From: a virus
DNA length: 45,352 nucleotides
Strand: one strand, 5' to 3'
Virus record (IMG/VR): IMGVR_UViG_3300029448_000084
Location: 1-45,352 of that record
Positions 1 through 45,352 of this stretch are shown one piece after another. A program made the position numbers and the translations under genes. Position 1 is the stretch's first letter; the number at the start of each line of letters is the position of its first letter. Below the pieces are notes generated by a model. The model was not told the origin of the DNA. It made no database searches and saw only the letters and a list, made by a program, of their open reading frames with translations.

Positions 1-1
1 T

Positions 2-334
2 ACTGAAGGAGCTTTCCTGGTAATTAACAAAGAGACAGGTTCGCTTCATCTTTCTAAGTATCCTAAAGAAGTGTTGCCGTCCCCTAAAGAAAACATCCCT
101 AAACTAAAAACTATTTTAGAAAGCGAACAGTTACCAGAAAGATGTTACAACCCCGAACCTATGGGTAAATCAGGTAACATGAAGCTACCTTTCCAGTGTA
201 GTTACTGTGAATTTAAACATGAATGTTATAAAGACAGTAACTCTGGTGAGGGCTTGAGAACATTTCTTTATAGTTCTGGTCCTGTTTATCTAACAGAAGT
301 GGGTAAAGAACCTAATGTATTTGAATTAAAATGA
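2..334 (+). CDS. Cas4/RecB-like exonuclease, C-terminal part (cut by window start)
   Basis: This is the last 110 codons of the nuclease found complete at 44485-45348. The reading frame runs open from base 2 to the stop at 332-334 and aligns without gaps to the end of the full copy. It keeps the cysteine cluster CSYCEFKHEC. Two residues differ from the end copy: Ser for Ala in the TG-LHLS segment and Ser for Gly in the SN-GEG segment. Nearly all other base differences are silent, so both copies look like functional alleles rather than a decayed duplicate. The stop overlaps the next gene's ATG by 4 bases (ATGA), as in the end copy. The 5' truncation is only the window edge. In the phage this is one gene crossing the contig junction. 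Confidence 0.9.
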   Translation, partial: TEGAFLVINKETGSLHLSKYPKEVLPSPKENIPKLKTILESEQLPERCYNPEPMGKSGNMKLPFQCSYCEFKHECYKDSNSGEGLRTFLYSSGPVYLTEVGKEPNVFELK

Positions 335-756
335 CAAGAAAAACAAGAGGTGCTCCCTCAGTTAAAGCAAAGAGGACAAACCATTTCGCATCAAAACTAG
401 AGAATGATGTGTCTTCTAAACTTCGTAAGATTAAAAAGAAAGTAAAATTTAGTTATCGTTACGAACAAGATAAATTAAATTACGTTTCACTGCACACATA
501 CAATCCAGATTTTACTATAACGAACTATACAGGAACTGTCTGGTTCTTAGAAGTGAAGGGATTTTTCTCAAGTGCAGATAGATCCAAAATGAAGAAGGTA
601 AAAGAAAGTAATCCTGATTTAATTATTCGTATGTTATTTAAAAATGATCATAAAATAGGTAAAAAATGGAGGTGTTCTGATTGGTGTAAGTATAATGGTT
701 TCGATTATGCTTTCACAGATCATGGTGGTCCTCCAGAGGAGTGGTTCCATGATTAA
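331..756 (+). CDS. T7-like endonuclease I (Holliday junction resolvase)
   Basis: This 141-residue protein matches T7 gp3 endonuclease I in length (149 aa in T7) and in its catalytic layout. E24, D60 in YNPDF, and E74 with K76 in EVKG correspond to T7 E20, D55, E65 and K67. The family resolves Holliday junctions and branched DNA, and degrades host DNA during infection. The N-terminus is strongly basic, as expected for DNA binding. Its start overlaps the stop of the exonuclease (ATGA), which implies coupled translation in the recombination/replication block. The first 8 bases of this gene also recur at the window end (45345-45352), confirming gene order across the junction. The function is assigned from motifs and neighbourhood and is well supported. 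Confidence 0.92.
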   Translation: MTRKTRGAPSVKAKRTNHFASKLENDVSSKLRKIKKKVKFSYRYEQDKLNYVSLHTYNPDFTITNYTGTVWFLEVKGFFSSADRSKMKKVKESNPDLIIRMLFKNDHKIGKKWRCSDWCKYNGFDYAFTDHGGPPEEWFHD

Positions 757-1562: not shown

Positions 1563-2402
1563 ATGACTTACGCAATTCTGAGAGACAAGAAGTATGCCTC
1601 CGGCAGAGGCCTTGGGGTAGGCTTAAAGGGTGTGTTTGTAGAGCCCAGGGGTAGGCGTCCTAAAAATGATAGGACTCTTTTGAACTGGGGTTGTGTCAAA
1701 AGGCCTGAGTGGCTGCCTCAGTTTGAGGGTTTAGTTTTAAACGACTTTGATTCTGTAGCCGCGGCTAGTAATAAGTTAGAAAGTTATAGATTATTTTCTA
1801 TGCACGAAGTGCCTACTCTAGACTTTACTACCGAGTTAGCTCTAGCTCAAGAATGGCTCCGCGAAGGTAATCGAATCTTTGCCCGCACTAAATTAAATGC
1901 TAGTCAAGGGGCAGGCATTACCATCTTTGACAACGAGGAAGCGCTAGGTCTTTGTCGTGCCCCCCTCTTCGTTAAGGAGTATAAAAAGAACAGGGAATAC
2001 CGCGTCCATGTTCTTAATGGCGAGGTTATTGACTTTGCTCAGAAGCGTAAGATGGGTGATGTCAGACTGGCTGACAATAATATTAATGAAGTAGATCCGT
2101 CTATTAGAAATCATGATAATGGGTGGGTGTTTACTAAGTCACGAATTGATAGACACGAAGATATCGATAACGTTGCTATCGCCGCAGTACAGGCCTTGGG
2201 TTTAGACTTCGGTGCTGTTGATGTCCTAGCTAAATGGAAACTATCTAAAGAAGCAAACGAACATGGGGGTAAGAACGCGCTAGAGTTAAAGTCTGCCGTT
2301 GTCTGTGAAGTGAACACCGCCCCTTCTTTATCTGCTAAGTCTACTTTAGACAATTACATTCGTGCCTTTAAACAATACGAAAGACAGGAAAATGTTAAAT
2401 GA
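1563..2402 (+). CDS. ATP-grasp carboxylate-amine ligase
   Basis: This 279-residue protein has the sequence pattern of ATP-grasp enzymes (RimK/glutathione synthetase-like). Residues 105-122 (RIFARTKLNASQGAG) form the nucleotide loop. FVKEY at 136-140 and REYRVHV at 144-150 give adenine and phosphate contacts. D220 and CEVNTAPSL at 248-256 provide metal ligands. The family activates a carboxylate as acyl-phosphate and joins it to an amine or thiol. Phage ATP-grasp genes often occur with amidoligases, glutamine amidotransferases and gamma-glutamyl cyclotransferases (Iyer and colleagues, 2009), and this genome has that set at 34518-40355. It therefore probably acts in the same peptide-tagging or modification pathway although it is encoded about 7 kb further along the circular map. 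Substrate unknown. The start follows AAGGAA with good spacing. Confidence 0.85.
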   Translation: MTYAILRDKKYASGRGLGVGLKGVFVEPRGRRPKNDRTLLNWGCVKRPEWLPQFEGLVLNDFDSVAAASNKLESYRLFSMHEVPTLDFTTELALAQEWLREGNRIFARTKLNASQGAGITIFDNEEALGLCRAPLFVKEYKKNREYRVHVLNGEVIDFAQKRKMGDVRLADNNINEVDPSIRNHDNGWVFTKSRIDRHEDIDNVAIAAVQALGLDFGAVDVLAKWKLSKEANEHGGKNALELKSAVVCEVNTAPSLSAKSTLDNYIRAFKQYERQENVK

Positions 2403-7619: not shown

Positions 7620-7910
7620 ACTCTCTGTAACAAACATAATTAACGGTACAATAATAGTTGCGGTAGCTGCAATACCCACCCGTATCTCAGTACGTAAGAC
7701 AGCTTGGTCTTTGGAAAGTTTATTAACTTCTTTGGCTAGTGTATCTAGTATGTCTGTTTCTTTTAATTGGCTAGTGTGTTGTAGGGACTCTTTAGTTTCT
7801 ATGACCACTAGCCTTTCTCGTACTTCAGACAGATCATTTTTAATTTCTACAAGCAAATTATATAATCCCTGAACATTTGCTTCTTTGGGGGTGACATCAT
7901 GAAGAGACAT
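7605..7910 (-). CDS. coiled-coil protein with C-terminal membrane helix, holin/XhlA-like candidate
   Basis: The 101-residue protein has a long charged helical region (about residues 15-75, EIKNDLSEVRERLVVIETKE onward), then one hydrophobic segment at about 79-97 (VGIAATATIIVPLIMFV) close to the C-terminus. This soluble coil plus C-terminal anchor plan is that of hemolysin XhlA-type phage membrane proteins and some holins. It is the last gene of the leftward arm. Its 3' end overlaps thyX by 15 bases on the opposite strand. I see only a weak hairpin there (AGAGT-8-ACTCT at about 7608-7625) and no classical terminator. Confidence 0.6.
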   Translation of the reverse strand: MSLHDVTPKEANVQGLYNLLVEIKNDLSEVRERLVVIETKESLQHTSQLKETDILDTLAKEVNKLSKDQAVLRTEIRVGIAATATIIVPLIMFVTESLFPL

Positions 7911-7926
7911 TATCTGACAGTATCCT

Positions 7927-9864
7927 TTATTCTTCTGGCGTGTTTAAAAGATTTAGGCTTTGTAGGACTTCCTCTGTTCTTTCAGGGCCTTCCACCTCGA
8001 AAAGAATTTTGACGATAGAGTTTAACTCACGTTCAAATTGTTTGATATCACCAGATTTTCTCTTTACTTGTTCGGTCCCTAAGAGTTCAGAGCCCAGCAA
8101 CTGAGCACCAGGAGAAGGAATTCTGTTTAAACCAAGCGAAGCTAGTGGGTTGTCCGCAACAAAAGTTTCTTGGGCATTAACCGTAACCTTACCAGTTTTT
8201 TTATTAAACTCAATAGTAGGTACATTGGGATCCGGCACAAAAGAACTACGAGCAGCGAGATCTTGGGTGTACCTTAAAGATACAGGCCCTAACGTATTCA
8301 CTGCCATAGTAGCGTATCTATTAGCTGTACTTCTATCTCCCTTAGATACTAAGTAGCTAAGTAGATTCTCTCCCGTTTGTCCAGAGAAGAGGGTAGTTAA
8401 CAAATCTTGACCTTGACTGCCGTTAACAAACACTTCTTCTTTAGATAAGACTTCTAAGATATTATCGGCTCTTTGTTTTATGTGTTCTTGTCCCACTAAA
8501 TCTACTTGGGTATCGAAGAAAGTTCTCACATTCTCCGCTAAGACAGGATACTGGGTTTGTTTAGTTACACTATCTAAGTTACTAAAATTAAGAGCATCGT
8601 TGTCCCCGGTTCCTCTCTTGTAAGTATCAACAATATCTACAATTTGATTACCTGAATTTCCCGAGCCAAGAGCTCGCATCAAACCAGAGAGTTGGTCAGC
8701 ATTTAAACTTGAACCGAACCTGCTTATTGCAGCTAGCGCGGGCTGGTTGTACAACACTGCGTTAGCAATTAAATCTACGTTAGTGTCTGCTACCTTCCCG
8801 ATTACAGATAGTACATTTTCATCACCAATAATTTCGTTTTGTATCCTATCAAGCCTATCTCTGTATGCTTTTTGGATGGCAATTTTTTGTTCTAGAGAGA
8901 CTCCAGTACCCTCAAAGAGGGAATCGATCTGGCTGTCTAGATTAGCTCTGGTCAAGGTAAAGTTTTGTTGAATCTGTTGTACAGCTTCTAGACTAATCTG
9001 TTCTCCGGGTTTAAACACATTATCTTGTGACAAGAAAACTTGTTGTAGCACACCTTCGATCTGTTCTGCTACTAAGGTATCTAGTTGTCCTGTCGCAGAA
9101 GTAACAAGAGAGTTTAGTTGCAAATTTCTTTGTGCGGTTGTCAGGTTTAAGTCAGCTTGAGTAGCATTAAGCCCTCTGATGGTGTCGTCTAATTGTGCTC
9201 GGTTAGCTTGAAAGCGCCTCAACTTTCTTTCCGTCGCCTCAATATCATATTTGCCAAAGACAGTATCAATTGAATTAGGGTCTGTAGAAGACGAAGCAGA
9301 GACTAAAGCACCTAAGCTTGCAGCATCGTCTATAAGGCTCTTGTGTAGCTTTCTTTCAGCTGCTGCTACTCGACTAGACTCTTGTTCTTCTCGAATAGAC
9401 TCTTGTTCTTCTTGGTCACCCAGCGCCAAGATAGCCTGCCTAGCGGCGGAATCTACATTAGTACCAAAGGCAGACCTAAATCTTTTATCAATCTCGTCTG
9501 CGTATCGGGGAAACTGAGCCTTCAATCTCTTAGATTCTAAGTTAGCGTTGATGTAGTACTGGCTAGTCGTCATCTTACCCTGCTCTCTTGCGGAGTTTAA
9601 GCGACTAGAGCGGCTGTCCACTTCGTTACCAATAGTATCCGGTAAGTTAGCGTTGACTAACGCATCATCTAAGTCTTCCTTAGCTTCGTTAACCTTACGT
9701 CCAATCCTGTTTCGTTGCAGAGAGTCCGCTGCTTGCACAGCTTGCCCTAAAAACCTGACCCCTTCTTGAACAGATCTGCCCAAACCCCGGGTGCCTTGGT
9801 ACACACGAGGATCCACAGTAGGGATAACGTTAGGTTCGTTTAATTGAGTAAGAAATGAAGTCAT
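7927..9864 (-). CDS. internal virion protein (T7 gp15-like position)
   Basis: This 645-residue protein is predicted largely helical, rich in Gln, Asn, Leu and Arg, with no membrane segment. It follows the giant internal protein with a one-base start/stop overlap. By gene order (gp14-like, giant protein, this gene) it corresponds to a T7 core protein such as gp15 that enters the host with the DNA. Compared with T7, the order of the gp15- and gp16-sized proteins seems reversed. The assignment rests on size, composition and position only. Confidence 0.6.
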   Translation of the reverse strand: MTSFLTQLNEPNVIPTVDPRVYQGTRGLGRSVQEGVRFLGQAVQAADSLQRNRIGRKVNEAKEDLDDALVNANLPDTIGNEVDSRSSRLNSAREQGKMTTSQYYINANLESKRLKAQFPRYADEIDKRFRSAFGTNVDSAARQAILALGDQEEQESIREEQESSRVAAAERKLHKSLIDDAASLGALVSASSSTDPNSIDTVFGKYDIEATERKLRRFQANRAQLDDTIRGLNATQADLNLTTAQRNLQLNSLVTSATGQLDTLVAEQIEGVLQQVFLSQDNVFKPGEQISLEAVQQIQQNFTLTRANLDSQIDSLFEGTGVSLEQKIAIQKAYRDRLDRIQNEIIGDENVLSVIGKVADTNVDLIANAVLYNQPALAAISRFGSSLNADQLSGLMRALGSGNSGNQIVDIVDTYKRGTGDNDALNFSNLDSVTKQTQYPVLAENVRTFFDTQVDLVGQEHIKQRADNILEVLSKEEVFVNGSQGQDLLTTLFSGQTGENLLSYLVSKGDRSTANRYATMAVNTLGPVSLRYTQDLAARSSFVPDPNVPTIEFNKKTGKVTVNAQETFVADNPLASLGLNRIPSPGAQLLGSELLGTEQVKRKSGDIKQFERELNSIVKILFEVEGPERTEEVLQSLNLLNTPEE

Positions 9865-12800: not shown

Positions 12801-14552
12801 TTTCTTGTTCCCCACCTTCAGACTTTTAGCCAATCTAGCAGCTGTTTCTTGCATTTTACCTTGAATTGAAGTGGCCATATGACCAGTGTTCTTCTGAACT
12901 GTGTTCAAAAACAGATCAGGAGATGCTAACACATTTAAATAAGGGCTTACTTTTGCTAATTTGTCCTTCGGTACAGAACCCAAAGCTCGAATAGGAAAAG
13001 AATTTTCCCCAACATCTACAGTAACTTTAATAAAATGTGGTCCCTGAGAAGATTCAATAGAATATTCCCCTGGTTTTAATCCATAAACATTTTCAGCCGC
13101 ACGCTTGGCTGTCTCCGGAGAGACAAAGCCCTTGCCCTTACCTTTTAGGGTGCCTAATAAAGCGTCAACCTGTAGGTCTCCTGTTAAAGGATCCACTCTG
13201 TAGATTTCCCCACCTAAGATATCAAAAGAATTGATGAGCTTTGTATCTAAATCTAATTCCTGTTGGCGTCTTCCCAGGGCTATTTCAATAGCCTGTGTCT
13301 TTTGAGCTTCATTTAGTCTATCAATTCTTTGAATCTCAACCGATTGATTGATAAAATTCTGTTGCTCTTCTAATTGTCTTGCTACATTAGGAGAGACGGA
13401 GGAAAGAACAGCATCATCAATAGTCTCAGCAGGATTAATACCCAATGATTTTTTAACCAGGGATACAGAAGAGGCGGCCTCTGCTTGTTTTAGAGGGGCT
13501 ACAGAAGACACTACATCATCTAGATTAGCAACATCTACTAGATCATCTTTGACTGCGTTAGCTATCACGTTAGAGGCTGCGTTACGCGCCCCAGATACTT
13601 TTAACAAAGTAGAGGTGTCCGCTAATCTGCCCGCTGTAGTGGCAGCACTTAGTGCGGTAGGAATAATATCAAGCAGATTAAAACCAGTGAAGGCTCTTTC
13701 TCCAGATTGAGAGAGACCAGCAGAGTTTGCTTCCAAAACTACTTGCAAAGACTGCAAAGCGTTCTTTCCGAACACCCCAGCTTCTATATCCTTTCGGTTA
13801 GAATCAAGATAGTTTCTCATGTCCTCGATGTTATCGAACTGAGTGAGCGAAGAGTAAAGATCGGTAGCTTGATTAGAGATTGAACGCCCTCTGATTTGCT
13901 TTAAAGCATCTGCTGGGGAAGAAGCACGCCCTAGAATTTCATAAAAGGGAATAAACAAACCTGCGACATCTCTAGTTTTTGCAACTAAACCCTGATCTTT
14001 AAAAACTTCACCAGCTTTTAAAAGCTCTTCTTGTAGTGCTTGATGTGCTAAGTAATGTCTATGTATCCCTGAATAATCTACTGGTTCTGCTTCTTCCAAA
14101 AGACTAGTATCAGAATCCTGGATACCAAGCTCAGTAAAAAAATCTGCTACTTTGTTTTCCACCACTGATTCTGGATTAGTCCTAGCATTAGAGACTACAT
14201 TAATAAACTCTGCTACTTGGTCCTCACTAGTTTCCGGATCATAAACCATGGAGCTTAAACGTTCCTGGAAGATTCTTTTCCTGGAAATATCATTGGCGAG
14301 AGACAAATCATCTCTTAGAATCCCCTCGTTCCCTGACAGAATCTCGTCCTCTAAGGCACGTATGCGAGAATTAAGATCAATCTGAACCTGTTGTTCAGGT
14401 TTTAATTCAGACAACACTTGTTGTTCTGCTAAAGCCATTTTGGTAGCTTTAACATTTAAATCTTCTGTATCCTCAGAACTTAAAGATTGTTCCTGAACAC
14501 TTACAGATTGTTTCAGTAGTCTAGTGTTGTCTACTGGTTTAAGTAAATTCAT
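9864..14552 (-). CDS. giant internal virion protein (T7 gp16-like)
   Basis: At 1562 residues this is the largest gene, comparable to the 1318-residue T7 gp16, which forms the inner core and is ejected into the cell envelope to form part of the DNA conduit. The protein is mostly helical. A stretch near residues 1075-1240 (containing LRPQEALRSMSLYFPLRAIL and SIPTQFLSYNLRLAELLL) resembles the central region of such proteins in marine podoviruses. I do not see the N-terminal lytic transglycosylase motif of T7 gp16, so wall opening may depend on another protein. Short hydrophobic stretches occur around LVGQAALYGSAGMLGMSAIG. It overlaps the gp14-like gene by 4 bases. Confidence 0.75.
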   Translation of the reverse strand: MNLLKPVDNTRLLKQSVSVQEQSLSSEDTEDLNVKATKMALAEQQVLSELKPEQQVQIDLNSRIRALEDEILSGNEGILRDDLSLANDISRKRIFQERLSSMVYDPETSEDQVAEFINVVSNARTNPESVVENKVADFFTELGIQDSDTSLLEEAEPVDYSGIHRHYLAHQALQEELLKAGEVFKDQGLVAKTRDVAGLFIPFYEILGRASSPADALKQIRGRSISNQATDLYSSLTQFDNIEDMRNYLDSNRKDIEAGVFGKNALQSLQVVLEANSAGLSQSGERAFTGFNLLDIIPTALSAATTAGRLADTSTLLKVSGARNAASNVIANAVKDDLVDVANLDDVVSSVAPLKQAEAASSVSLVKKSLGINPAETIDDAVLSSVSPNVARQLEEQQNFINQSVEIQRIDRLNEAQKTQAIEIALGRRQQELDLDTKLINSFDILGGEIYRVDPLTGDLQVDALLGTLKGKGKGFVSPETAKRAAENVYGLKPGEYSIESSQGPHFIKVTVDVGENSFPIRALGSVPKDKLAKVSPYLNVLASPDLFLNTVQKNTGHMATSIQGKMQETAARLAKSLKVGNKKVDEAVTALVTHSQETGKWLKPQELSSVVGPDRVNDTVVSNYYTLQQINDVDYAFRNAFFRSELHRNNYKSLSWEDNTFIGRFRLDVGEVANKEIVFDTSKGSLFEPGDLDPTEFKNYMDKNNLVAVQPRFSDDLSSFGVTLETGNRLDPTVVVVPRSALQSHTLPQFILNYQPGGHRLYQGRYFLKQGRVATGRTNKQYLMKPRTFYNFESLKEGRDFADNLEAARLAYLDEDISKVDELLDGTAMEGFDNFDKLVRQDKINPNIPFELLEDGERPSFYTNSTFRQEFLNDSESDLVDYFYFNGNGFLQKRGEHLTDAQGAPAAVVNPYLSADRGLKNALNLGSFANYKIRAADTFFETFKDILDPALVNEVNQGRRNTIQVIMNPAYNTETTNPATVLRRQAQAHATAYQRLVNQPTVEDNIFTELRRTFTNYVYDKGKVGEYIQKEMDSLSVNPVEAARSMVFDTSLGLFDISQLPVQTSTVAVISSLRPQEALRSMSLYFPLRAILINNDPKFLKHMATQLKKAKFIESAEDFVEMGELLQSTGFANISKTLTLVDQTKGRQLRVNKFLSGTNAVREAGRVPFLEAERLNRLVGFSAEYFFRKKKNLLDVNNPDSVADFVTAADELTVNMTRASASNFQSGALSIPTQFLSYNLRLAELLLSQTLDTGAKARLLVGQAALYGSAGMLGMSAIGTATDNFAQYISSKTSLSLEEAGAKANEILDEGVLDAVILESLGFDSDAASRLGSSLFNGELISSIHNSPVNPLETALGPTYSKATSLVGAINNYMLALNQTYHTGDLPSVEDYKQFGRLASSFSRFEKAYILYKTNKLISSNGSVLYSRASGDQEIFLTAMGFQLDDVSEAFDLAEAFDENFGDSVKTSGKLSNLVDSYARASFDFINSDDEAKRIAASNRMKFINTLFQDDPLTFVEFRKQVDLRTKQEGFAERMETKMLQRLTEDNPIRRRIEADERDND

Positions 14553-15049
14553 CCAGAACCACCAGAACCCAGCGAACTCAAGATAGACGAAACCCCCGAA
14601 GCAGCCTGTCCTAGCTGTCCTAACTGTCTGGCTTTAATAAGCTGTTGAGACGCGCTAGTTTGTAAAGTATTTAAGTCGCCTTGGGAACGAAGGAAGGATA
14701 AGTTACCTTGCGTTTGACTCACAATGCTTTGTCGAGAACCGATGGCACCAGAACTTTCTGTAGCTCCCTGCGCCTGGGCGGCAACTTCTGAGTTAGCTAA
14801 GGCAATCTGAGATTCTCTTAGAGCCCTGATGTTCTCTCTTCGTAGTCGCAACTCCGATTTTGACTTTTCAATCCTCGCTAATTTTCTGCTAGCTTTGGCT
14901 GATTGCCTACTTGACTGAACACCAGCACCCACCCCAGCACCTCCTGACGCAACAGCTAGGCCAATAAGAGCAGTAGTAGAGAACGGATCAGCAGTGTAAA
15001 CTGGTCCCGCTACAGAGAAAATTTCTATAAAGTTATATAACCAATCCAA
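14549..15049 (-). CDS. internal virion protein (T7 gp14-like)
   Basis: The 166-residue protein starts with a hydrophobic, glycine/alanine-rich segment (residues 25-45, TALIGLAVASGGAGVGAGVQ), followed by a long Arg/Gln/Ala-rich helix (50-110) and a Gly/Ser tail. This is the typical plan of T7 gp14, which inserts in the outer membrane during ejection. It lies between the GNAT-like gene and the giant core protein, matching the T7 order 12-13-14. It overlaps both neighbours (25 and 4 bases). Confidence 0.75.
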   Translation of the reverse strand: MDWLYNFIEIFSVAGPVYTADPFSTTALIGLAVASGGAGVGAGVQSSRQSAKASRKLARIEKSKSELRLRRENIRALRESQIALANSEVAAQAQGATESSGAIGSRQSIVSQTQGNLSFLRSQGDLNTLQTSASQQLIKARQLGQLGQAASGVSSILSSLGSGGSG

Positions 15050-30726: not shown

Positions 30727-30868
30727 AATAAATTTTATCCTTTGAACATAATTATATATAATATATATAATATACCTAAGTTATAGAGTGGAAGGAAACG
30801 AAAAGGAAATGATTAGAGGGAAAGGAGTTTCTTTAACTGCCGCCAAAACTATATATAGTTATATCTAT

Positions 30869-30897
30869 ATTATACCATGTCTACTAACCTATGTCAA
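30869..30897 (-). promoter_or_regulatory. consensus sigma-70 promoter for the leftward virion arm
   Basis: On the minus strand TTGACA (30897-30892) and TATAAT (30874-30869) are both perfect consensus hexamers with a 17-base spacer. The transcript should start near 30862 and reach the small-terminase ATG at 30726 after about 135 bases of leader. Since no phage RNA polymerase is encoded, this is the likely main host-polymerase promoter of the virion genes. Confidence 0.8.
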
Positions 30898-31068
30898 GTA
30901 AAAAATGCAATATTTATAAAAATTTTATGTAGTAAATTTTAGGTGACTATATGAACAGAGCGATGCAAATCAAAACCCCTGATACCCCCCCATCTGACTT
31001 TCCCCGATCACAAACAATCGTATTAAGTGTGTACCACAAGTTTAGAGATTTGTCAACCCCTTACCAAG

Positions 31069-31146
31069 TACTTTTTTATTTTTTTACATCATCACACCTT
31101 ATCTCTCTAATCATCACCCAATCATAACACACCTATTCACTATCAT
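31069..31146 (+). other. 78-base G-free tract
   Basis: There is no G on the plus strand from 31069 to 31146, and the tract contains T-runs and repeats of the ATCATCAC type (31088-31095 and 31111-31118). Such a strand-biased tract next to promoters could be a DNA-unwinding or replication-start element, or a single-strand protein site. The absence of G is seen directly; the function is inferred. Confidence 0.5.
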
Positions 31147-31233
31147 GCGGTAATATAATACCTCTTTCAATTACAAATTAGTCATAACTTTTTTCTTGCA
31201 TACCATTCTTTCCCCTGTTATCTCTCCATCATC

Positions 31234-31880
31234 GCTGGCCCTATCACCAATCGGTGAAGCCTTATGTCAGTGACCAGCCCTCTATCAGGGAAGCCTATTG
31301 CGAGAATGGGTGCGGGAGCTAACGTAGCGGTTAGTGACTGTAATTAAACAAACGTGGATATCGATGATGTCGAAACTCTTTTGTGATACGCGGTAAGCTA
31401 TCGATAAGGTAGCCTAGAGAGTATGATGTTTATGCGCGGTGAGGGCTAGCCCTAGTGCGTTTAGATGTAGTCCGTAAGGGCCCAAAGGACTAGTAAGCAG
31501 AAGGCTAACGCGTTGCGGGAGAGAAGCTGACTGCTTCCGCCAGAGGTCAGGGCTTAAAAGCCGGTGCGTCCAGGCTCCCGATCTCTTAAAATATGGACAA
31601 CTAACTAAAATCGAAGATGAATGACAATGGAATAGCTTAGCTAGATCTTGTTACCTTGTAACGATTTACCTCACCAATCGTGATGGGAAAGCAACAATCT
31701 ATAATGTTATGTTAATCTTAGTTTATCGAACGATAGTTAGCATGTGAAAAACGCTGCTATGGCGTAACAATAGCTACGCAGCGCAGAAACCCAGCCTTTT
31801 GTATACACAAAGGGAGTGACACTGGTGGCCTGCGTTGTAAGGTGTTGTTGCACCACAAGCCACGCGGTTTAATCCGCACG
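31234..31880 (+). ncRNA. large structured RNA candidate (about 650 nt)
   Basis: The region has no open frame but is dense in stems. A long-range 7-bp pairing CGGGAGC (31313-31319) with GCTCCCG (31574-31580) closes a multibranched domain. Inside it are GCTATC-gataa-GGTAGC (31397-31413), AGGG-ctag-CCCT (31442-31453), TAGTCC/GGACTA (31468-31473 with 31487-31492) and GCGGGAG/CTTCCGC (31515-31521 with 31534-31540). Before it are TCACC-aatc-GGTGA (31244-31257) and GCTGG/CCAGC (31234-31238 with 31274-31278). After it are GTTAC-ctt-GTAAC (31650-31662), CGCT.GCTAT with ATAGC..AGCG (31752-31783), a CCTTTTGT/ACAAAGG stem (31795-31813), and GTGGC with GCCAC (31825-31829, 31859-31863) enclosing GGTG/CACC. 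Size, phage context and nearby tRNAs recall the GOLLD and ROOL classes, but I cannot assign it to either. The borders are approximate. Confidence 0.6.
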
Positions 31881-31893
31881 AAAGGAACTAAAA

Positions 31894-32709: not shown

Positions 32710-32791
32710 GCCCGCATGATGGAATAGGTAGACATAACAGACTTAAAATCTGTGGCTTTATAGCGTCCCGGTTCGAGTCCGGGTGCGGGCA
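32710..32791 (+). tRNA. tRNA-Leu (anticodon UAA)
   Basis: A complete cloverleaf is visible. The acceptor is GCCCGCA with TGCGGGC (7 bp). The anticodon stem is ACAGA/TCTGT around loop CTTAAAA, with anticodon TAA at 32744-32746. The T arm is CCGG-TTCGAGT-CCGG with the TTCGA motif, and there is a long variable arm as required for Leu. CCA is encoded at 32792-32794. It reads TTA codons, which are very frequent in this AT-rich genome. Confidence 0.95.
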
Positions 32792-32819
32792 CCATTTCGC
32801 TAAGAAATAGGAGAACATC

Positions 32820-34422: not shown

Positions 34423-34496
34423 GACAACGTAGCTCAATAGGATAGAGCAATAGTCTTCTAAACTATAGGTTGTGGGTTCAAGTCCCACCGTTGTCA
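34423..34496 (+). tRNA. tRNA-Arg (anticodon UCU)
   Basis: A full cloverleaf is present. The acceptor is GACAACG/CGTTGTC, the D arm GCTC-AATAGGATA-GAGC, and the anticodon stem ATAGT/ACTAT around CTTCTAA, with anticodon TCT at 34457-34459. The T arm is GTGGG-TTCAAGT-CCCAC. CCA is encoded (34497-34499). It reads AGA, the favoured arginine codon of the phage genes and usually a minor codon in GC-rich bacteria. Confidence 0.95.
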
Positions 34497-34517
34497 CCAC
34501 CTAACAAAGGAATATCT

Positions 34518-34889
34518 ATGCAATATGTGGCAGTATATGGAACCTTGAAGAAAGGTGAAAGTAATCATCACTTACTATGGGACAGTGAATTTATTAAAGA
34601 ATATCGCTACCCAGAGGGTTATCTCGTTGACCTAGGTCGTTTTCCCGGCTTCATTAATACGAAGTTCAGTTTCAATGGTGGTGTTGTCGTAGAGGTATAC
34701 TTAGTAAATGACGCCACAATTAATAGATTGGATTGGTTAGAGGATGTTGATAACGAGGACCCTATTCGAGGTTTGTACCTAAAAACTTTCATTGATGTGG
34801 AAGGAGTAGGAGAGTGCCTCATCTATGAATACAACTATCACCCAGATGTTTTAGAAGCACACCGGTTAGTAGATAAAGGAGAATGGTAA
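34518..34889 (+). CDS. gamma-glutamyl cyclotransferase-like (AIG2/GGCT family)
   Basis: The start is the ATG at 34518 after AAAGGAA; an earlier in-frame codon at 34470 would lie inside tRNA-Arg. The 123-residue protein has the family's substrate loop YGTLKKGESNHHLL (7-20), the catalytic glutamate E59 in GGVVVEVYLV and the usual LDWLEDVD helix. These enzymes release 5-oxoproline from gamma-glutamyl amines or peptides. In phage and bacterial amidoligase clusters they are thought to trim or recycle gamma-glutamyl linkages. It opens an operon of seven closely packed genes. Confidence 0.88.
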   Translation: MQYVAVYGTLKKGESNHHLLWDSEFIKEYRYPEGYLVDLGRFPGFINTKFSFNGGVVVEVYLVNDATINRLDWLEDVDNEDPIRGLYLKTFIDVEGVGECLIYEYNYHPDVLEAHRLVDKGEW

Positions 34890-34891
34890 CC

Positions 34892-35932
34892 ATGCGGCTA
34901 ACAAATAAAGATATCTTAGAAGACTTGAAAAATAAACCCCTTCCTAAGAGGAATACATTTGGGTTCAGGGTTTACTTGTCTGACGGAAGTACCCATAACT
35001 TTTCAGGTGCTTGCTTCAACCCCTTACCCCCGTTCTCGCGACGATCTATTGGTAAGAAGTGTGTAGGTTTTGCTTTACGAAGCACGGGTCCCGCTTATCT
35101 TAGCTATCCCGAAGACATCTTAAGAAAATATTTTATAGGGGACAAAACACCGTGGAGTTCTTATATTAAGTTGTCAAAAAGTAATGTAAAAGATTACTTA
35201 CAACATGGGTTCTTTTTTAACACTAAGGTATGTGAGAAAGTTCCTTGCTCTGTAATGTTTAATTTCTTGACAGCTCTTCGCTCTCCTATAGAAAGTTCGC
35301 AACAGCTAGAATGTTTTAGGCTCATGGAATCCTTAAAGGTGCCGGGTATGAACAAGTGGGATCCATTTGTTTTCGCATTTTCTATGCACAATTTTCTTTT
35401 CAATCACTCAAGGTATGGTCTCACAATCCCTTCTGTTTTTTACGATGCTGAAGGTAACCTACGAGAGGGTATTAGGAACGACCAGGCGCCAGGACGGCAG
35501 TTTAGAGAAATAAACTCTCACATAGAATTAAATAGCGATCACGCGTTTAGCTTCTGGGCTTCTTGGGGTCATAGATTTTTGCCTGGTTACTCACCCACGA
35601 TAAGAGATCAGTTCCTTCGCGGGGATCTTTCGATGAAACATTTAAGTAACTTAGAAGACTTTCAGTTACCTAACTTAAAGTCTTTCTCTGAGTACTATAG
35701 TTACTGTAGGGACAGCTCTATTTGGGGGGCCTACCCAAACAAGTACAAAAAACAAGTTCCGAATGCTTGGTTTAAAGGTGAACAAGATAAAGTAAACAGA
35801 GAGTTGGGGCGCTTACCCAGTAGAACTTTCAATTTACAAAAAACAAATAAGGAAGAGTTTGATAAGGCAGCAAAAGAACTCTGGACCGAAAAACTAAAAA
35901 TTGTTATTAAAACATACGAAAGGAATCAGTAG
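34892..35932 (+). CDS. unknown protein of the amidoligase operon (346 aa)
   Basis: The ATG at 34892 has GGAG 10 bases upstream and lies 2 bases after the cyclotransferase stop. An in-frame ATG at 34883 is too close to the ribosome site. I recognise no family. The sequence has many aromatic residues (PWSSYIKLSK, FAFSMHNFLFNHSRYGL, AFSFWASWGHRFLPGYS), looks globular and mixed alpha/beta, and lacks membrane segments. A His and Glu/Asp-rich part around EINSHIELNSDHAF could bind metal. Its fixed place between two gamma-glutamyl enzymes suggests that it is a working part of the pathway, perhaps the acceptor-specific or transferase component. Confidence 0.8.
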   Translation: MRLTNKDILEDLKNKPLPKRNTFGFRVYLSDGSTHNFSGACFNPLPPFSRRSIGKKCVGFALRSTGPAYLSYPEDILRKYFIGDKTPWSSYIKLSKSNVKDYLQHGFFFNTKVCEKVPCSVMFNFLTALRSPIESSQQLECFRLMESLKVPGMNKWDPFVFAFSMHNFLFNHSRYGLTIPSVFYDAEGNLREGIRNDQAPGRQFREINSHIELNSDHAFSFWASWGHRFLPGYSPTIRDQFLRGDLSMKHLSNLEDFQLPNLKSFSEYYSYCRDSSIWGAYPNKYKKQVPNAWFKGEQDKVNRELGRLPSRTFNLQKTNKEEFDKAAKELWTEKLKIVIKTYERNQ

Positions 35933-36685
35933 GTGTCTTATAAAGTTCATATCTTAGATAACATAGGCACGATGTACAACAACTTCTTCCATATAAATGG
36001 GCACGAGGTAGTCGAGGAAATCGAGGACGCCGAAGTGGTTTGTTTTACTGGGGGTGCCGATGTAAACCCTGAGTTATACGGGGAAGTACCACATAAGTTA
36101 TCTTCTTTTCAAAACCCCAGGAGAGACATCGCAGAAATGCTCGCCTATAACTATAGCCTTGAGAAACAGAAGGCTATGGTTGGCATTTGTAGGGGAGCAC
36201 AGATGCTGAATGTTTTGAATGGGGGAAAATTGTTCCAACATGTGGATAATCATGCAGCTACTCATGACATTCTAGATATTGCTAATAACAAATGGATTAA
36301 GGCCACATCTACACACCATCAAATGATGAGGCCAGGCCCTCAGGCCATACTCAGGGCTGTTGCGGTAGCCCCTACGGGGGAGGCTTTAAGATCTCTTTGT
36401 GTCAGAAAAGAGGCGTATAAAATTTCCTACTATATAGGGGGGCGGCCCTTCTCTCTCAAAGAAGTTAGAAAAACTTTAAGAAATAGCAGGGAATTTGTGG
36501 ATATCGATCCCGCATGTGACCCTGAAGTTTTGTATTACTATAACACAAACTCTTTGTGTTTCCAACCGCATCCAGAATTTGGTAGTGCTTCTAAAGAATT
36601 AGTAGAATTTTTCTTTAGACAATTAGATACAACTGTTAAAAACAATCGAAAGAAAGTCGAGGGTAAGTCATGTGCGGTATCGTAG
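35933..36685 (+). CDS. peptidase C26 / class I glutamine amidotransferase-like hydrolase
   Basis: Translation starts at a GTG immediately after the previous stop, with AAAGGA upstream. The protein (250 aa) has the triad of the class I amidotransferase fold: C86 in VGICRGAQ, and H213 and E215 in FQPHPEFG. GGADVNPELYGE at 40-51 is typical of gamma-glutamyl hydrolases such as PuuD. It should cleave gamma-glutamyl bonds of a small molecule or peptide adduct. It overlaps the next gene by 16 bases. Confidence 0.88.
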   Translation: MSYKVHILDNIGTMYNNFFHINGHEVVEEIEDAEVVCFTGGADVNPELYGEVPHKLSSFQNPRRDIAEMLAYNYSLEKQKAMVGICRGAQMLNVLNGGKLFQHVDNHAATHDILDIANNKWIKATSTHHQMMRPGPQAILRAVAVAPTGEALRSLCVRKEAYKISYYIGGRPFSLKEVRKTLRNSREFVDIDPACDPEVLYYYNTNSLCFQPHPEFGSASKELVEFFFRQLDTTVKNNRKKVEGKSCAVS

Positions 36686-37812
36686 GTGTTGCAGGTAATC
36701 TAAACAACAACGACATAAAGATATTTAAAGAGCTGCTTTTTGTAGATACTTTAAGAGGTCGTCACGCAACAGGGATGTATGCGTATTCCGCCAAAAAAAA
36801 TGAGGGGGAGTTGGTAAAGAAAGCAATGGAAGCCCCTTCCTTTCTCGAATTGAAACAAGTGGACAAGCTTTGTAACATAAGTAAAAGTCTTTTGTTGGGC
36901 CATAACAGACACGCAACTATCGGAAACCTTTCCGGAGTAAACGCGCACCCCTTTCAATACCAAGATATTGTGGGGGTTCATAATGGTTCGATATCTATTC
37001 CTAGTTTCACCCAGCTAAAGAACAAGTTTAAAAATCCTGACTATTTCCAAGTTGATAGTGACGCAATTTTTGCAAACATCCAACACTTTGGGATTGAGGA
37101 CACACTAAAAGAAATGCAAGGTGCTTGGTGTTTGGTTTGGGTTAACCTAGAAGAACAAACTTTGAATTTCTTACGTAACGAAAAGAGACCTATGACCCTG
37201 TATCGGGATGAAGGTGATCTATACTGGGCATCTGAAGTTAATATGTTAAGGGCTATCCTTTCCCGTAACAAGATTGAGTGGGATCCTTCCAAAGTCACCA
37301 ACCTTCCTGTTAATACTCTATTTAGTTATGACATCTCTCCCGTAAATAAATCTAATATCATCTCTGTTGGTGAGCCTAAAATCACGGTGGATATGAAGGG
37401 GAAAGAAGAAGTAAAGACTATACATGAAACATCACAGACCACTTTTATTGGGAGGAGTAAGACAAATTACAGGGCACAATCAAGACAGCAAAGTACTAAA
37501 GTCGAAAGTCCTATTGATCCTATCGAATTTAATTCGTTTCTAAAATACGAATATGATGGTGTCACTCTTATAAAAACTTCCTTTAAAAAGGATTGTTGTT
37601 ACTGTTCTAACCCGGTAGATTCAAAAGATAATTGGGTTTGGTTATCCCCTGACACTATCTTGTGCGAGAATTGTTGTAACGACAAACAAGTAAGAGGGAC
37701 TATAGAGGAGTATACAGGTAAGACATTACAAGAGTTTGTAACAGAACATGAAGATCTTTTGTATTACTTAAACCCAGAAATGTTTGAAGCAGGAGAAAGA
37801 AAGGAAGCTTGA
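36670..37812 (+). CDS. class II glutamine amidotransferase with C-terminal zinc ribbon
   Basis: The protein begins MCGIVGVAGN; Cys2 becomes the N-terminal nucleophile after methionine removal. The first 200 residues follow the Ntn amidotransferase fold (RGRHATGMYAYS, LGHNRHATIG, VGVHNGSI, DSDAIFANIQ). It should free ammonia from glutamine. Residues about 205-300 form a linker, and at about 308-340 two cysteine pairs (CCYC and CENC) form a probable zinc ribbon. I know no standard role for a ribbon in this family, so it may dock a partner or a protein substrate. It lies between the C26 hydrolase (16-base overlap) and the amidoligase (2-base gap). Confidence 0.88.
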   Translation: MCGIVGVAGNLNNNDIKIFKELLFVDTLRGRHATGMYAYSAKKNEGELVKKAMEAPSFLELKQVDKLCNISKSLLLGHNRHATIGNLSGVNAHPFQYQDIVGVHNGSISIPSFTQLKNKFKNPDYFQVDSDAIFANIQHFGIEDTLKEMQGAWCLVWVNLEEQTLNFLRNEKRPMTLYRDEGDLYWASEVNMLRAILSRNKIEWDPSKVTNLPVNTLFSYDISPVNKSNIISVGEPKITVDMKGKEEVKTIHETSQTTFIGRSKTNYRAQSRQQSTKVESPIDPIEFNSFLKYEYDGVTLIKTSFKKDCCYCSNPVDSKDNWVWLSPDTILCENCCNDKQVRGTIEEYTGKTLQEFVTEHEDLLYYLNPEMFEAGERKEA

Positions 37813-37814
37813 AC

Positions 37815-38642
37815 ATGCCTATCTTAATTGGAGCAGACCCAGAACTGTTTGTTAGAGAAGAACAGACAAACAGGATGGTCCCTGGTTTTGACTTAATTCC
37901 AGGCACAAAACAAGAACCTCATAAAGTTAACAACGGTGCTGTTCAAGTTGACGGCATGGCCCTAGAATTCAACATTGATCCTTCAAGGTCCTTGGAAGAA
38001 TTTGTAGATAACATCACGTCAGTTCAACAGCAGTTGCAAGAGATGGTGGCAGGCAAGAACTATCATTTAGTTGCTGAACCAGTAGCAGAATTTAATCAAG
38101 AAGATCTTAATAATCTTCCTGGCTTTGCTTTAGAACTAGGTTGTGAACCTGATTATAACGCATGGTTATACGGTCAAGAGAACTACCTCGATCCTTCTGC
38201 TAGTTTTTTAAACTGGAGGACTGGCGCAGGGCATGTGCATATTGGGTGGACCGAAGGAGTGGAAGATATCTTTTCTATCGAACATAGGATGGCTTGCATT
38301 GAACTTGTTCAAGAATTAGATTATTATCTTGGAGTGCCTTCTTTACTGTGGGATACTGATACGAAGAGAAGGGAAATGTATGGTGCGCCTGGGTGTTACC
38401 GCCCTAAACCCTACGGTCTAGAGTACCGGACTTTAAGTAACGCCTGGCTTCGGAGGGAAGAGTACACCAGGCAGGTATATCTAAACACAAAACTAGCTGC
38501 TAAAAATTATTTTGATACTGATTATAGATTTGTATCAGAGTATGGACAGTCTGCCAAAGACTGGATGTTAGACCCTGAGACTTACCAAGGGGAAATCCGG
38601 GCCTTCCTAAATGACAACAGTCACCTAACGGAGAACCTGTAA
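37815..38642 (+). CDS. phiEco32-type amidoligase (COOH-NH2 ligase)
   Basis: The ATG at 37815, 7 bases after AAGGAAG, is preferred over an in-frame TTG at 37809. The 275-residue protein has the pattern of the glutamine-synthetase-fold amidoligases first described in phage phiEco32: GADPELF near the N-terminus, QVDGMALEFNIDPS, GAGHVHIGW, and a late YGLEYRTLSNAWL. The acidic residues and histidines of these motifs bind metal and ATP. The family joins a carboxylate to an amine. A second, different amidoligase is two genes downstream, so two successive ligations are likely. Confidence 0.88.
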   Translation: MPILIGADPELFVREEQTNRMVPGFDLIPGTKQEPHKVNNGAVQVDGMALEFNIDPSRSLEEFVDNITSVQQQLQEMVAGKNYHLVAEPVAEFNQEDLNNLPGFALELGCEPDYNAWLYGQENYLDPSASFLNWRTGAGHVHIGWTEGVEDIFSIEHRMACIELVQELDYYLGVPSLLWDTDTKRREMYGAPGCYRPKPYGLEYRTLSNAWLRREEYTRQVYLNTKLAAKNYFDTDYRFVSEYGQSAKDWMLDPETYQGEIRAFLNDNSHLTENL

Positions 38643-39319
38643 TGAAACCTTTGTATGATAATCTTTCGGATGCACAGAGTTACTTGTCAAAAAGTATTGT
38701 TATGTTGGGTAAAGAGCCTTGTTATATTGTTTATGTAGAGGGGGAGGATCCCCTGAATAAAGAAACCTGGACTATCGGCTACAACCTTCTAAAAGATTGG
38801 GGTTACGGAGAAAAAAGAGTTTCTTACGTAGAAGCCGACTTAAATGTTAAACCAATCAAGGGTTTCTTAACTAATGTTCTTATCTATGATTTTCCTTGTT
38901 TCTTACATGTGAGAAGAAAGCCTTGTAGGTCTTTTAAACAAGGTTTGTCTAGGTCTAATGCACTAATAGACGCCTGGAAACCTAATCATGCACAGTTTAG
39001 AAGCACCAAAGAAGCCTTCGATTTAAAAACCTTTATGGCTGCGCCCTCTTTCGTCGATAACATGAAAAATATTTACCCTAGTTTAGAAAACTTAGAAGAG
39101 AGTTTTGAAAATTATCCAAATAACCCGATAGCAATCTCCCGAAAACTGGCTATCGGTAGGGATAATGAACTAGGATTAGAATACCTAATCAGAAATATGA
39201 GTAAGGTCGGTTACCGGGAAGGAAACGAAGGACCTTTCAAACTTTCTGAAACAGGGAGACACCAACTGGAATATATCGTTAACGCAAATGTACCTGGCTT
39301 GGAGGTAACTAATGTCTAA
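38642..39319 (+). CDS. unknown protein between the two amidoligases (225 aa)
   Basis: The start overlaps the amidoligase stop by one base and the end overlaps the next amidoligase by 8 bases, so the three are translationally coupled. No family is recognised. The N-terminal half is alternating strand/helix (PCYIVYVEGED, VLIYDFPCFLHVRRKPCRSF), and the rest is helical and basic. Conserved linkage would make this a partner of the amidoligases, for example a substrate carrier or adaptor. This is inference from position. Confidence 0.8.
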   Translation: MKPLYDNLSDAQSYLSKSIVMLGKEPCYIVYVEGEDPLNKETWTIGYNLLKDWGYGEKRVSYVEADLNVKPIKGFLTNVLIYDFPCFLHVRRKPCRSFKQGLSRSNALIDAWKPNHAQFRSTKEAFDLKTFMAAPSFVDNMKNIYPSLENLEESFENYPNNPIAISRKLAIGRDNELGLEYLIRNMSKVGYREGNEGPFKLSETGRHQLEYIVNANVPGLEVTNV

Positions 39320-40355
39320 TGAAGCAGAAATTAAAAGTTTCCTTGACTTGAAACTAAAGGAAGTTCCTTACCTAACTTATAAAAAGTGGGCAGCCAACAG
39401 GCTCTTGGGGGTCGAGGTTGAAACAGAAGGAAATAGGCTGCCTGACGCATACCTTTTGGAAACGCTTGCTTTACAGGGCGAGATCAAGTCAACCCTTAAA
39501 GAATCTTTTCTCAGTTTTTGGAAAACAACACGGGACGGATCTTTAAGAAACAATTCCTATGAATATGTTTTTAGGAAACCTTTAACTGTAATCGAAGCAG
39601 AAGAGGCCATCAACCAGTTGTATAATGTGTTTGAGTTAGCTAACACTGAACTAAAACAAAGCTACAGAACTAGTGTACATATTCATGTTAATTATCTAAA
39701 CAATACAGTACAAGAAATAATGAATAGTATTATGTTGTACTATATTGTGGAACCAATCTTAGCTAACTTCTGTCTTGAACCTCGAAGACACAACTTGTTT
39801 TGTTTACAGGCCTCAGAAGCAGAGGCTATAAAGGACACACTGTTACGTGTTTTAACAGCTAAAGCGGGGTCAAGTCTTTACCATTTGAGTAACGAGGATA
39901 TCCGATACGCTGCTATGAATCTTAACGCCATTACTAAGTTTGGGTCTATCGAGTACAGAATGTTAGAAGGTTCCGCGAGCAAGAAAAAAATCTTAAAGTG
40001 GATTGACCTACTCCTAGAATTACGAAGCGCAAGCAGCGCATTCCCAAACCCACAAGTAGTCTTAACAGAGCTATCCATTAAAGGCTTAGAAGATTTCTTG
40101 GAAACGTATCTTCCTAAGATTAGTTCTCTTTACAGCATTGAGTTAGAAGATTCTTGTATGGAACTTATGAGAGATATGCAAGAGTTAGCTTACTGCATTA
40201 ATTGGGATGTGGTAAAGGAGGAGAAAAAAGAAACGCGGGGTTATACTAATAAGATTCTAGAGCAGGGCTTAGTTAGGGGTAGGCCTTGGAGAGCAGAACA
40301 ACCGATTGAGCAAAATTATCTTCAGATCAGAGAAGTTTGGGAAGAAGATTTCTAA
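39312..40355 (+). CDS. Amidoligase_2 family enzyme
   Basis: The 347-residue protein matches the second glutamine-synthetase-fold amidoligase type: LLGVEVETEG near residue 30 (the G-x-E-x-E metal motif), RDGSLRNNSYEYVFRKP, TSVHIHVNY, a helical insert, and IEYRMLEGSAS in the second half. These enzymes form amide or peptide bonds using ATP. It is the last gene of the operon and is followed within 10 bases by a strong promoter for the replication genes, with no clear terminator between. Confidence 0.87.
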   Translation: MSNEAEIKSFLDLKLKEVPYLTYKKWAANRLLGVEVETEGNRLPDAYLLETLALQGEIKSTLKESFLSFWKTTRDGSLRNNSYEYVFRKPLTVIEAEEAINQLYNVFELANTELKQSYRTSVHIHVNYLNNTVQEIMNSIMLYYIVEPILANFCLEPRRHNLFCLQASEAEAIKDTLLRVLTAKAGSSLYHLSNEDIRYAAMNLNAITKFGSIEYRMLEGSASKKKILKWIDLLLELRSASSAFPNPQVVLTELSIKGLEDFLETYLPKISSLYSIELEDSCMELMRDMQELAYCINWDVVKEEKKETRGYTNKILEQGLVRGRPWRAEQPIEQNYLQIREVWEEDF

Positions 40356-40364
40356 ACTTCTTGC

Positions 40365-40393
40365 TTGACAAATCCCCAACTATATAGTATAAT
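40365..40393 (+). promoter_or_regulatory. consensus sigma-70 promoter for the replication genes
   Basis: TTGACA (40365-40370) and TATAAT (40388-40393) are perfect consensus boxes with a 17-base spacer, and the context is very AT-rich. The transcript would start at about 40400 and give an 80-base leader before the first gene at 40480. Confidence 0.85.
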
Positions 40394-44492: not shown

Positions 44493-45348
44493 GAACATTG
44501 ACACCCTAGTAGAGGATATCTACAGTCTCTTCGAAGATGGTCATGTTACTAGTGAAGACAATGTAAAAAATTTAGCAGATAATATTGCTAAAAGTATTTC
44601 CTTTGCTTTAAAGAAGGCGGGGGAAACTAGATCTAATCATTTAAGATTTTCTAATCTAGGACACCCTGTTCGAAAACTGTGGTATAAGACTAAAGGTTAT
44701 GAGGGGGAGGAGTTACTCCCCCATACCAAGATTAAGTTCCTCTATGGTGATATTTTAGAGCATTTGTTAATCTTCCTAGCTAAAGAAGCTGGCCATAAGG
44801 TAACGGGAGAACAAGAAAGACTTACACTACACGATGTAGTAGGACACCGAGATTGTGTCATTGATGGGGTAACTGTAGACGCTAAGACTGCCTCCAAATA
44901 TGCTTTCGAAAATAAATTTAAACCTGACTTAGCTCTCTTAGAAGAAGATTCTTTCGGCTATCTCGCTCAGTTAAGTGCTTATATAGAAGCCGATGAGACA
45001 GATGAAGTTAGTAATACTGAAGGAGCTTTCCTAGTAATTAACAAAGAGACAGGTGCGCTTCATCTTTCTAAGTACCCTAAAGAAGTTTTGCCCTCCCCTA
45101 AAGAAAACATCCCTAAACTAAAAACTATTTTAGAAAGCGAACAGTTACCAGAAAGATGTTACAACCCTGAACCTATGGGTAAATCAGGTAACATGAAACT
45201 ACCTTTCCAGTGTAGTTACTGTGAATTCAAACATGAATGTTATAAAGACAGTAACGGTGGAGAAGGTTTGCGAACATTTCTCTATAGTTCTGGTCCTGTT
45301 TATCTAACAGAAGTGGGTAAAGAACCTAATGTATTTGAATTAAAATGA
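44485..45348 (+). CDS. Cas4/RecB-like PD-(D/E)XK exonuclease
   Basis: The 287-residue nuclease has the motif GHRDCVIDGVTVDAKTASK (PD-(D/E)XK type, with D and the D-x-K triad) in the middle. Near the C-terminus is a cysteine cluster, CSYCEFKHEC, that could hold an iron-sulphur centre with an earlier cysteine as in Cas4/AddB-type nucleases. In T7-like replication blocks this place is taken by the gp6 exonuclease, which removes primers and degrades host DNA. The last third repeats at the window start (2-334) because the contig closes on itself. The stop overlaps the ATG of endonuclease I. Confidence 0.82.
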   Translation: MSKNIDTLVEDIYSLFEDGHVTSEDNVKNLADNIAKSISFALKKAGETRSNHLRFSNLGHPVRKLWYKTKGYEGEELLPHTKIKFLYGDILEHLLIFLAKEAGHKVTGEQERLTLHDVVGHRDCVIDGVTVDAKTASKYAFENKFKPDLALLEEDSFGYLAQLSAYIEADETDEVSNTEGAFLVINKETGALHLSKYPKEVLPSPKENIPKLKTILESEQLPERCYNPEPMGKSGNMKLPFQCSYCEFKHECYKDSNGGEGLRTFLYSSGPVYLTEVGKEPNVFELK

Positions 45349-45352
45349 CAAG
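45015..45352 (+). repeat. contig-end overlap with bases 1-338 (about 96% identical)
   Basis: Bases 45015-45352 align without gaps to 1-338, with about 15 substitutions by hand count. All but two amino-acid changes are silent. True terminal repeats of a phage would be identical. This pattern fits a circular or permuted genome assembled from a mixed population, where the two contig ends come from different strains. Confidence 0.85.

Follow-up and report, generated by a model that had tools for sequence, protein, structure and literature searches.

The window analysed here is a 45,352 nt stretch of viral DNA, positions 1 to 45,352 of the IMG/VR record IMGVR_UViG_3300029448_000084, and the element in question is a cassette of amide-bond-forming and gamma-glutamyl-cleaving enzymes at 34518-40355. 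An earlier note, made from the letters of the sequence, had described seven tightly packed genes in this interval and had put their share of the genome at 13%. Both statements proved correct: seven open reading frames (ORFs) lie on the + strand in the order given there, their junctions comprise overlaps of 7, 16, 4, 1 and 8 bases and one gap of 0, and the interval makes up about 13% of the ~45.0 kb of unique sequence. The cassette is directly upstream of the primase-helicase and DNA polymerase A genes, and so stands among the replication and transcription genes. An eighth gene belonging to the set lies apart from the other seven. The genes are as follows.

34518..34889, + strand: GGCT, gamma-glutamyl cyclotransferase, AIG2-like (PF06094)
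34883..35932, + strand: gene 2, putative Cys/His enzyme and divergent member of the K4 gp20-type cassette family (family profiles)
35933..36685, + strand: C26, gamma-glutamyl hydrolase-type protein of the class I glutamine amidotransferase fold (PF07722)
36670..37812, + strand: GAT2, class II (Ntn) glutamine amidotransferase domain followed by a zinc-ribbon-like tail (CxxC...CxxC) at the C-terminus (PF13522)
37809..38642, + strand: LIG1, phiEco32-type COOH-NH2 ligase (PF14395)
38642..39319, + strand: gene 6, conserved cassette protein between LIG1 and LIG2 (phrog_11055)
39312..40355, + strand: LIG2, Amidoligase_2 (PF12224)
1563..2402, + strand: GRASP, ATP-grasp ligase resembling RimK and alpha-L-glutamate ligases, the third ligase (phrog_2599)

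Six of the eight genes come from known enzyme families, and all six products (GGCT, C26, GAT2, LIG1, LIG2 and the ATP-grasp protein) retain the conserved residues of their active sites. Judged against the curated Pfam gathering cut-offs, the five family calls of the earlier note all hold, and the PHROGs assignments agree with them. LIG1 matched PF14395 (COOH-NH2_lig) with 52.1 bits against a cut-off of 25, and phrog_3815 at E 1.5e-74; its invariant residues include E12, E53, H142, H144, R198, E205 and R207. LIG2 matched PF12224 (Amidoligase_2) with 40.8 bits (cut-off 22) and phrog_7469 at E 1e-57, and the residues conserved in it are E35, E37, E84, H123, H125, E214 and R216. As neither ligase family profile matched a PDB chain by sequence at E <= 1, the glutamine-synthetase fold predicted for both is supported by the Pfam families and the conserved Glu/Glu/His/Arg pattern only.

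GGCT starts at the ATG at 34518, with AAAGGA just upstream, and matched PF06094 (GGACT) at E 3e-15 (57.2 bits, cut-off 22.8); the protein keeps the conserved Y, G and D together with the invariant E, which is E91 in the longer ORF and E75 when counted from this ATG. C26 scored 71 bits against the PF07722 (Peptidase_C26) cut-off of 20.5 and matched phrog_7218 at E 6e-44, and its Cys-His-Glu triad is conserved (C86, H213 and E215). GAT2 begins MCGIVG, with the Cys right after the initiator Met, and reached 62.9 bits for PF13522 (GATase_6, cut-off 27), GATase_7 also being above its cut-off; R80, N105, G106 and D129 are conserved, and the CxxC...CxxC tail (37580-37690) is common to most homologues but not to the crAss-like ones. 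The earlier note took GAT2 for an ammonia-releasing enzyme. The class II amidotransferase domain is there, with its resemblance to GlmS, PurF and AsnB, but the gamma-glutamyl hydrolase EgtC is similar to it as well, and ammonia release is therefore one of two possibilities.

The third ligase emerges when the genome is viewed as a circle. The ends of the window (1-338 and 45015-45352) match over 338 bp at 95.6% identity, with 15 differences, so that the record closes into a circle and holds the whole genome. This genome is complete and either circular or permuted; given the end mismatches, it was probably assembled from slightly differing variants. Across the circle, the ATP-grasp gene is co-directional with LIG2 and about 6.2 kb downstream of it, beyond genes for the primase-helicase, polymerase, single-stranded DNA-binding protein, exonuclease, endonuclease and metallophosphoesterase. 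The description of a two-ligase operon was thus right about LIG1 and LIG2 but missed this gene, and the functional set exceeds the interval. The protein matched phrog_2599 at E 7e-57, and its top-ranking relatives are the ATP-grasp members found in other cassettes; searched alone it scores below the Pfam and NCBIfam cut-offs. The family profile matched the PDB entries 7qyr, 5zct and 4iwx at E 6e-15 to 1e-14, and its PDB matches take in alpha-L-glutamate ligases, RimK, cyanophycin synthetase and D-Ala-D-Ala ligase. The split layout suggests that the ATP-grasp gene can sit outside the main block.

Genes 2 and 6 had been left as ‘unknown’, and neither has a Pfam family, but both turned out to be conserved cassette members, the one by profile searches and the other by its presence in 79/80 loci. 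Gene 2 alone gave no match in Pfam, PHROGs, phage records or IMG/VR patterns, and hhalign against ten relatives was not significant. Profiles were then built from 67-81 relatives of the gene that other cassettes carry immediately before C26. With the window protein excluded, they detected gene 2 among 2,279 ORFs at E 7e-8, 2e-11 and 3e-9; in the final profile round, the sole matches at E 1e-6 to 0.1 were genes of this same cassette region in three other phages. Gene 2 also holds the usual position of the family, directly before C26, and of the alignment's single invariant column (C44) and two near-invariant ones (R133 and H213) all are kept in the window protein. These profiles assign gene 2 to a conserved cassette family, which matches three PHROGs of unknown function and nothing in Pfam or the PDB. 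An AlphaFold2 model of gene 2 made without an alignment had a predicted local distance difference test score (pLDDT) of 33 and was unusable.

Gene 6 is a core component of the cassette. It matched phrog_11055 at E 6e-8, its significant matches are phage proteins without a named function only, and its conservation is highest in a basic loop that surrounds R92, R96, K99 and G101. An AlphaFold2 model from 26 sequences was mainly beta, with a mean pLDDT of 88.7 and a predicted template-modelling (TM) score of 0.82. A Foldseek search of the PDB with this model returned nothing at E <= 0.001; homology to tandem tudor, EF-P or eIF5A proteins was not accepted, the best match having an E of 0.05 and a TM score of about 0.2.

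These genes also recur together in other phages. A scan of IMG/VR with a LIG1 alignment found 538 relatives, and neighbourhoods were taken from the best 80. Genes were counted within 8 kb of LIG1 where the contig allows, and contig ends make the counts lower bounds; as the loci were picked by LIG1, only the counts of the other genes are informative, and some loci repeat earlier ones. Among these best 80 of 538 loci, LIG1 was found in 80, gene 6 in 79, GAT2 in 78, the ATP-grasp gene and LIG2 in 76 each, a primase in 71, C26 in 69, the gene 2 family in 53 and GGCT in just 15, so that GGCT is an optional part. The usual order is gene 2, C26, GAT2, LIG1, gene 6, LIG2, ATP-grasp, primase; within the first ~50 loci, the run from C26 to the primase and polymerase was usually in this order or had GAT2 moved after LIG2. 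The earlier note had said beforehand that a lack of co-occurrence in related phages would count against it; the same block recurs from locus to locus. GenBank phage records with relatives numbered 317 for LIG1, 308 for the ATP-grasp protein and 228 for LIG2, and the per-organism counts were near-identical for most groups. A scan of IMG/VR with the single LIG2 protein of the window found nothing.

With the same families in the same order in many phage lineages, among them Zobellviridae, LUZ24-like, phiEco32-like and crAss-like phages, Grimontviridae and Rhizobium phages, the association is far beyond chance. Identity matrices between cassette families gave moderate correlations only (rho 0.24-0.64). 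A scan of bacterial and archaeal genomes (one genome per species, 84,980 species), a limited test as it used two search patterns, found 15 LIG1 loci, most of which carry several cassette genes, many of them on contigs of 44-50 kb. Because LIG1 is rare in these genomes and mostly stands beside cassette genes, the cassette looks phage-borne, and the pattern suggests that it is not a host metabolic operon. In the Rhizobium phage RHph_N3_19 (L044), two class II amidotransferase-like genes (7620-8813 and 13618-14754) flank the ligases, and the second is without several of the conserved residues.

This kind of cassette has already been published under a name, and the phage studied here carries a further member. 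PMC5498523, with reference to Hardies 2013 and an Iyer paper, gives the name ‘peptidoglycan modification cassette’ to a set of seven genes in RIO-1, phiEco32, 7-11, PA11, tf, MR299-2, LUZ24, PaP3 and CW02, and in PSA-HP1 too, and puts forward the hypothesis that it alters the cell surface and blocks superinfection. PMC11945000, on a LUZ24-like phage, restates this reading and adds the idea of preparation for lysis. Iyer 2009 is cited for the same cell-wall reading in PMC10580990 and PMC11318856, which bears out the connection with Iyer et al. 2009 drawn in the earlier note, and PMC10945688 proposes a role in nitrogen metabolism for Planctomycetes phage ZRK32. No cassette product is reported in the available parts of these five papers, and we found no biochemical data on peptidoglycan action for any cassette member.

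The closest layouts differ from that of the window in several ways. The Pseudoalteromonas phages RIO-1 and PSA-HP1 share GGCT, GAT2, LIG1, gene 6, LIG2 and the ATP-grasp gene, followed by primase and polymerase, and RIO-1 also encodes a protein of the gene 2 family; the window phage differs in having C26 and in carrying its ATP-grasp gene ~6 kb off, beyond the replication genes. Pseudomonas phages K4 and PA11 and Salinivibrio phage CW02 (Zobellviridae) have C26, GAT2, LIG1, gene 6, LIG2 and the ATP-grasp gene in the same order, and in K4 a gene 2 family protein precedes C26. In these phages, however, the ATP-grasp gene is inside the cassette and LIG1 is only about 45-51% identical to that of the window, and no GGCT was seen within the K4 locus. 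LUZ24, the phiEco32-like phage 172-1 and the crAss-like phages phi14:2 and cr108_1 share LIG1, LIG2, GAT2 and the ATP-grasp gene, but in LUZ24 and 172-1 the place of C26 is taken by two other proteins, each of ~320-400 amino acids, and gene 6 was not detected in the crAss-like loci.

Nearer relatives of the phage as a whole suggest exchange at this position. The genome is that of a small marine-type phage, and its nearest terminases are those of Cobavirinae (Celeribacter phage P12053L and others), at about 60-62% identity. P12053L and the oyster-associated phage T5S1-k141_653015 have terminases within this range and related capsid and portal proteins, but no detectable cassette genes, so the cassette was gained or lost within the group. 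A further contig with a terminase 60% identical (L071, record G001) carries remote homologues of the ATP-grasp protein, LIG2, GAT2 and GGCT (L156, 1756-6849; E 1e-9 to 1e-15) just upstream of the primase, and no LIG1 was found at that locus. On such comparisons of sequence, the slot upstream of the primase seems to hold exchangeable cassette versions. Two smaller observations belong here: a 251 amino acid ORF ahead of the remote version in L156 may be another amidoligase, and T5S1-k141_653015 has genes annotated as the cobaltochelatase components CobS and CobT (L068, 5413-9219) upstream of its polymerase and primase, in the general region of the window cassette.

What is new here is the displaced third ligase, the gene 2 family, the place of gene 6 in the cassette core and the variation of the slot among related phages. 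The cassette is present in hundreds of phage sequences from many lineages, and in the available parts of the published accounts its product is undemonstrated and two of the eight parts listed here are not named. Together, the list of eight parts and the seemingly phage-restricted spread of the cassette make the question of its product directly testable in laboratory phages such as LUZ24 or phiEco32.

We propose, with a probability of roughly 0.4, that the cassette encodes a phage-specific cytoplasmic pathway of amide ligation and gamma-glutamyl trimming, acting most likely on a soluble peptidoglycan precursor. A hydropathy scan of the cassette proteins showed no obvious membrane segment, which makes a cytoplasmic substrate probable. 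LIG1, LIG2 and the ATP-grasp protein would form up to three amide bonds at the expense of ATP, GAT2 would supply ammonia to a ligase or remove a gamma-glutamyl group, and C26 and GGCT would strip gamma-glutamyl groups; gene 6 would act as a scaffold or acceptor alongside both ligases, and gene 2 may add another enzyme of the Cys/His type. A precursor amidated or extended by one amino acid in this way would alter the new wall laid down during infection, which could hinder a second phage or aid timed lysis. The suggestion of the earlier note that the enzymes build and trim an adduct is reasonable.

The recurrence of eight families as one block speaks for a wall pathway, and the authors of PMC5498523 and PMC11945000 reached the same cell-wall interpretation. 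Several points weigh against it. No product, substrate or phenotype is known for the cassette, its neighbours are replication genes, not lysis genes, and a lytic infection gives little time for wall replacement. All of these enzyme classes also occur in soluble-metabolite pathways (EgtA/EgtC, PuuA/PuuD and BtrG), and GGCT requires a gamma-glutamyl group with a free alpha-amine, of which the normal stem peptide has none. C26 and GGCT are therefore unlikely to be simple wall degraders, and fit better as enzymes that take off a gamma-glutamyl group added temporarily.

The same protecting-group logic, known from the ergothioneine, putrescine and butirosin pathways, could instead yield a soluble gamma-glutamyl peptide or amine, serving as a signal, a counter-defence compound or a protected intermediate. 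We regard this as possible and hold it tentatively. The two clear gamma-glutamyl-cleaving families fit such a product, as do the resemblance of the class II domain to EgtC, the lack of an obvious membrane segment and the position of the cassette in the replication region in most lineages. However, no gene for a transporter, carrier or sensor was seen to be conserved with the cassette, no such metabolite is known, and the three-ligase set is equally compatible with a wall precursor.

Protein modification, with RimK-like ligation of amino acids to a host or phage protein and gene 6 perhaps as the acceptor or adaptor, seems unlikely. The ATP-grasp profile comes nearest to glutamate ligases of the RimK type, gene 6 has its conserved basic loop, and its model is weakly similar to SH3-like tandem tudor, EF-P and eIF5A folds; these fold matches are insignificant, though, GGCT and C26 are normally small-molecule enzymes, and there is no target gene. 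Also quite unlikely, in our view, is a broader version in which a phage-specific gamma-glutamyl metabolite or protein adduct is made with no change to the wall, gene 6 being a new acceptor or carrier and gene 2 a new family of Cys/His enzymes. If true, such a molecule would represent a new phage-made class, acting in host takeover or counter-defence and spread over many lineages.

A role in ordinary auxiliary metabolism of nitrogen or amino acids, the proposal made for phage ZRK32 in PMC10945688, draws on the annotation of these enzyme families in amino-acid metabolism, but we find it improbable: LIG1 was scarcely found beyond phage-like contigs, which is unlike a borrowed host pathway, and a three-ligase block with two proteins of unknown function matches no known nitrogen route. 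Hypermodification of DNA to shield the genome from restriction is hardly credible despite the primase and polymerase adjoining the cassette in most loci, because 11/16 restriction enzymes cut the genomic DNA of U17, a LUZ24-like phage that bears the cassette and was the most sensitive of the four phages tested (PMC11945000), and the DNA of the cassette-bearing phage tf was digested by HaeIII (PMC3517423).

Elsewhere, the genome also encodes ribonucleotide reductase subunits, a MazG-like pyrophosphatase, thymidylate synthase and DNA polymerase A, and PADLOC matched no defence family. About 1.1 kb between divergent modules (30727-31893) is without long ORFs, and holds no repeats of at least 14 bp and no Rfam match. 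The remaining features near the cassette are the following.

32710-32794: tRNA-Leu (taa)
34423-34499: tRNA-Arg (tct), ending 18 bases before the cassette start
40365-40393, + strand: putative sigma-70-type promoter, consensus-perfect TTGACA-17-TATAAT by sequence match only, between the cassette and the primase gene

Sites that fit TTGACA-17-TATAAT at 12/12 positions number two in the whole window: the one at 40365-40393 and a second at 30897 on the - strand, which faces the leftward structural genes.

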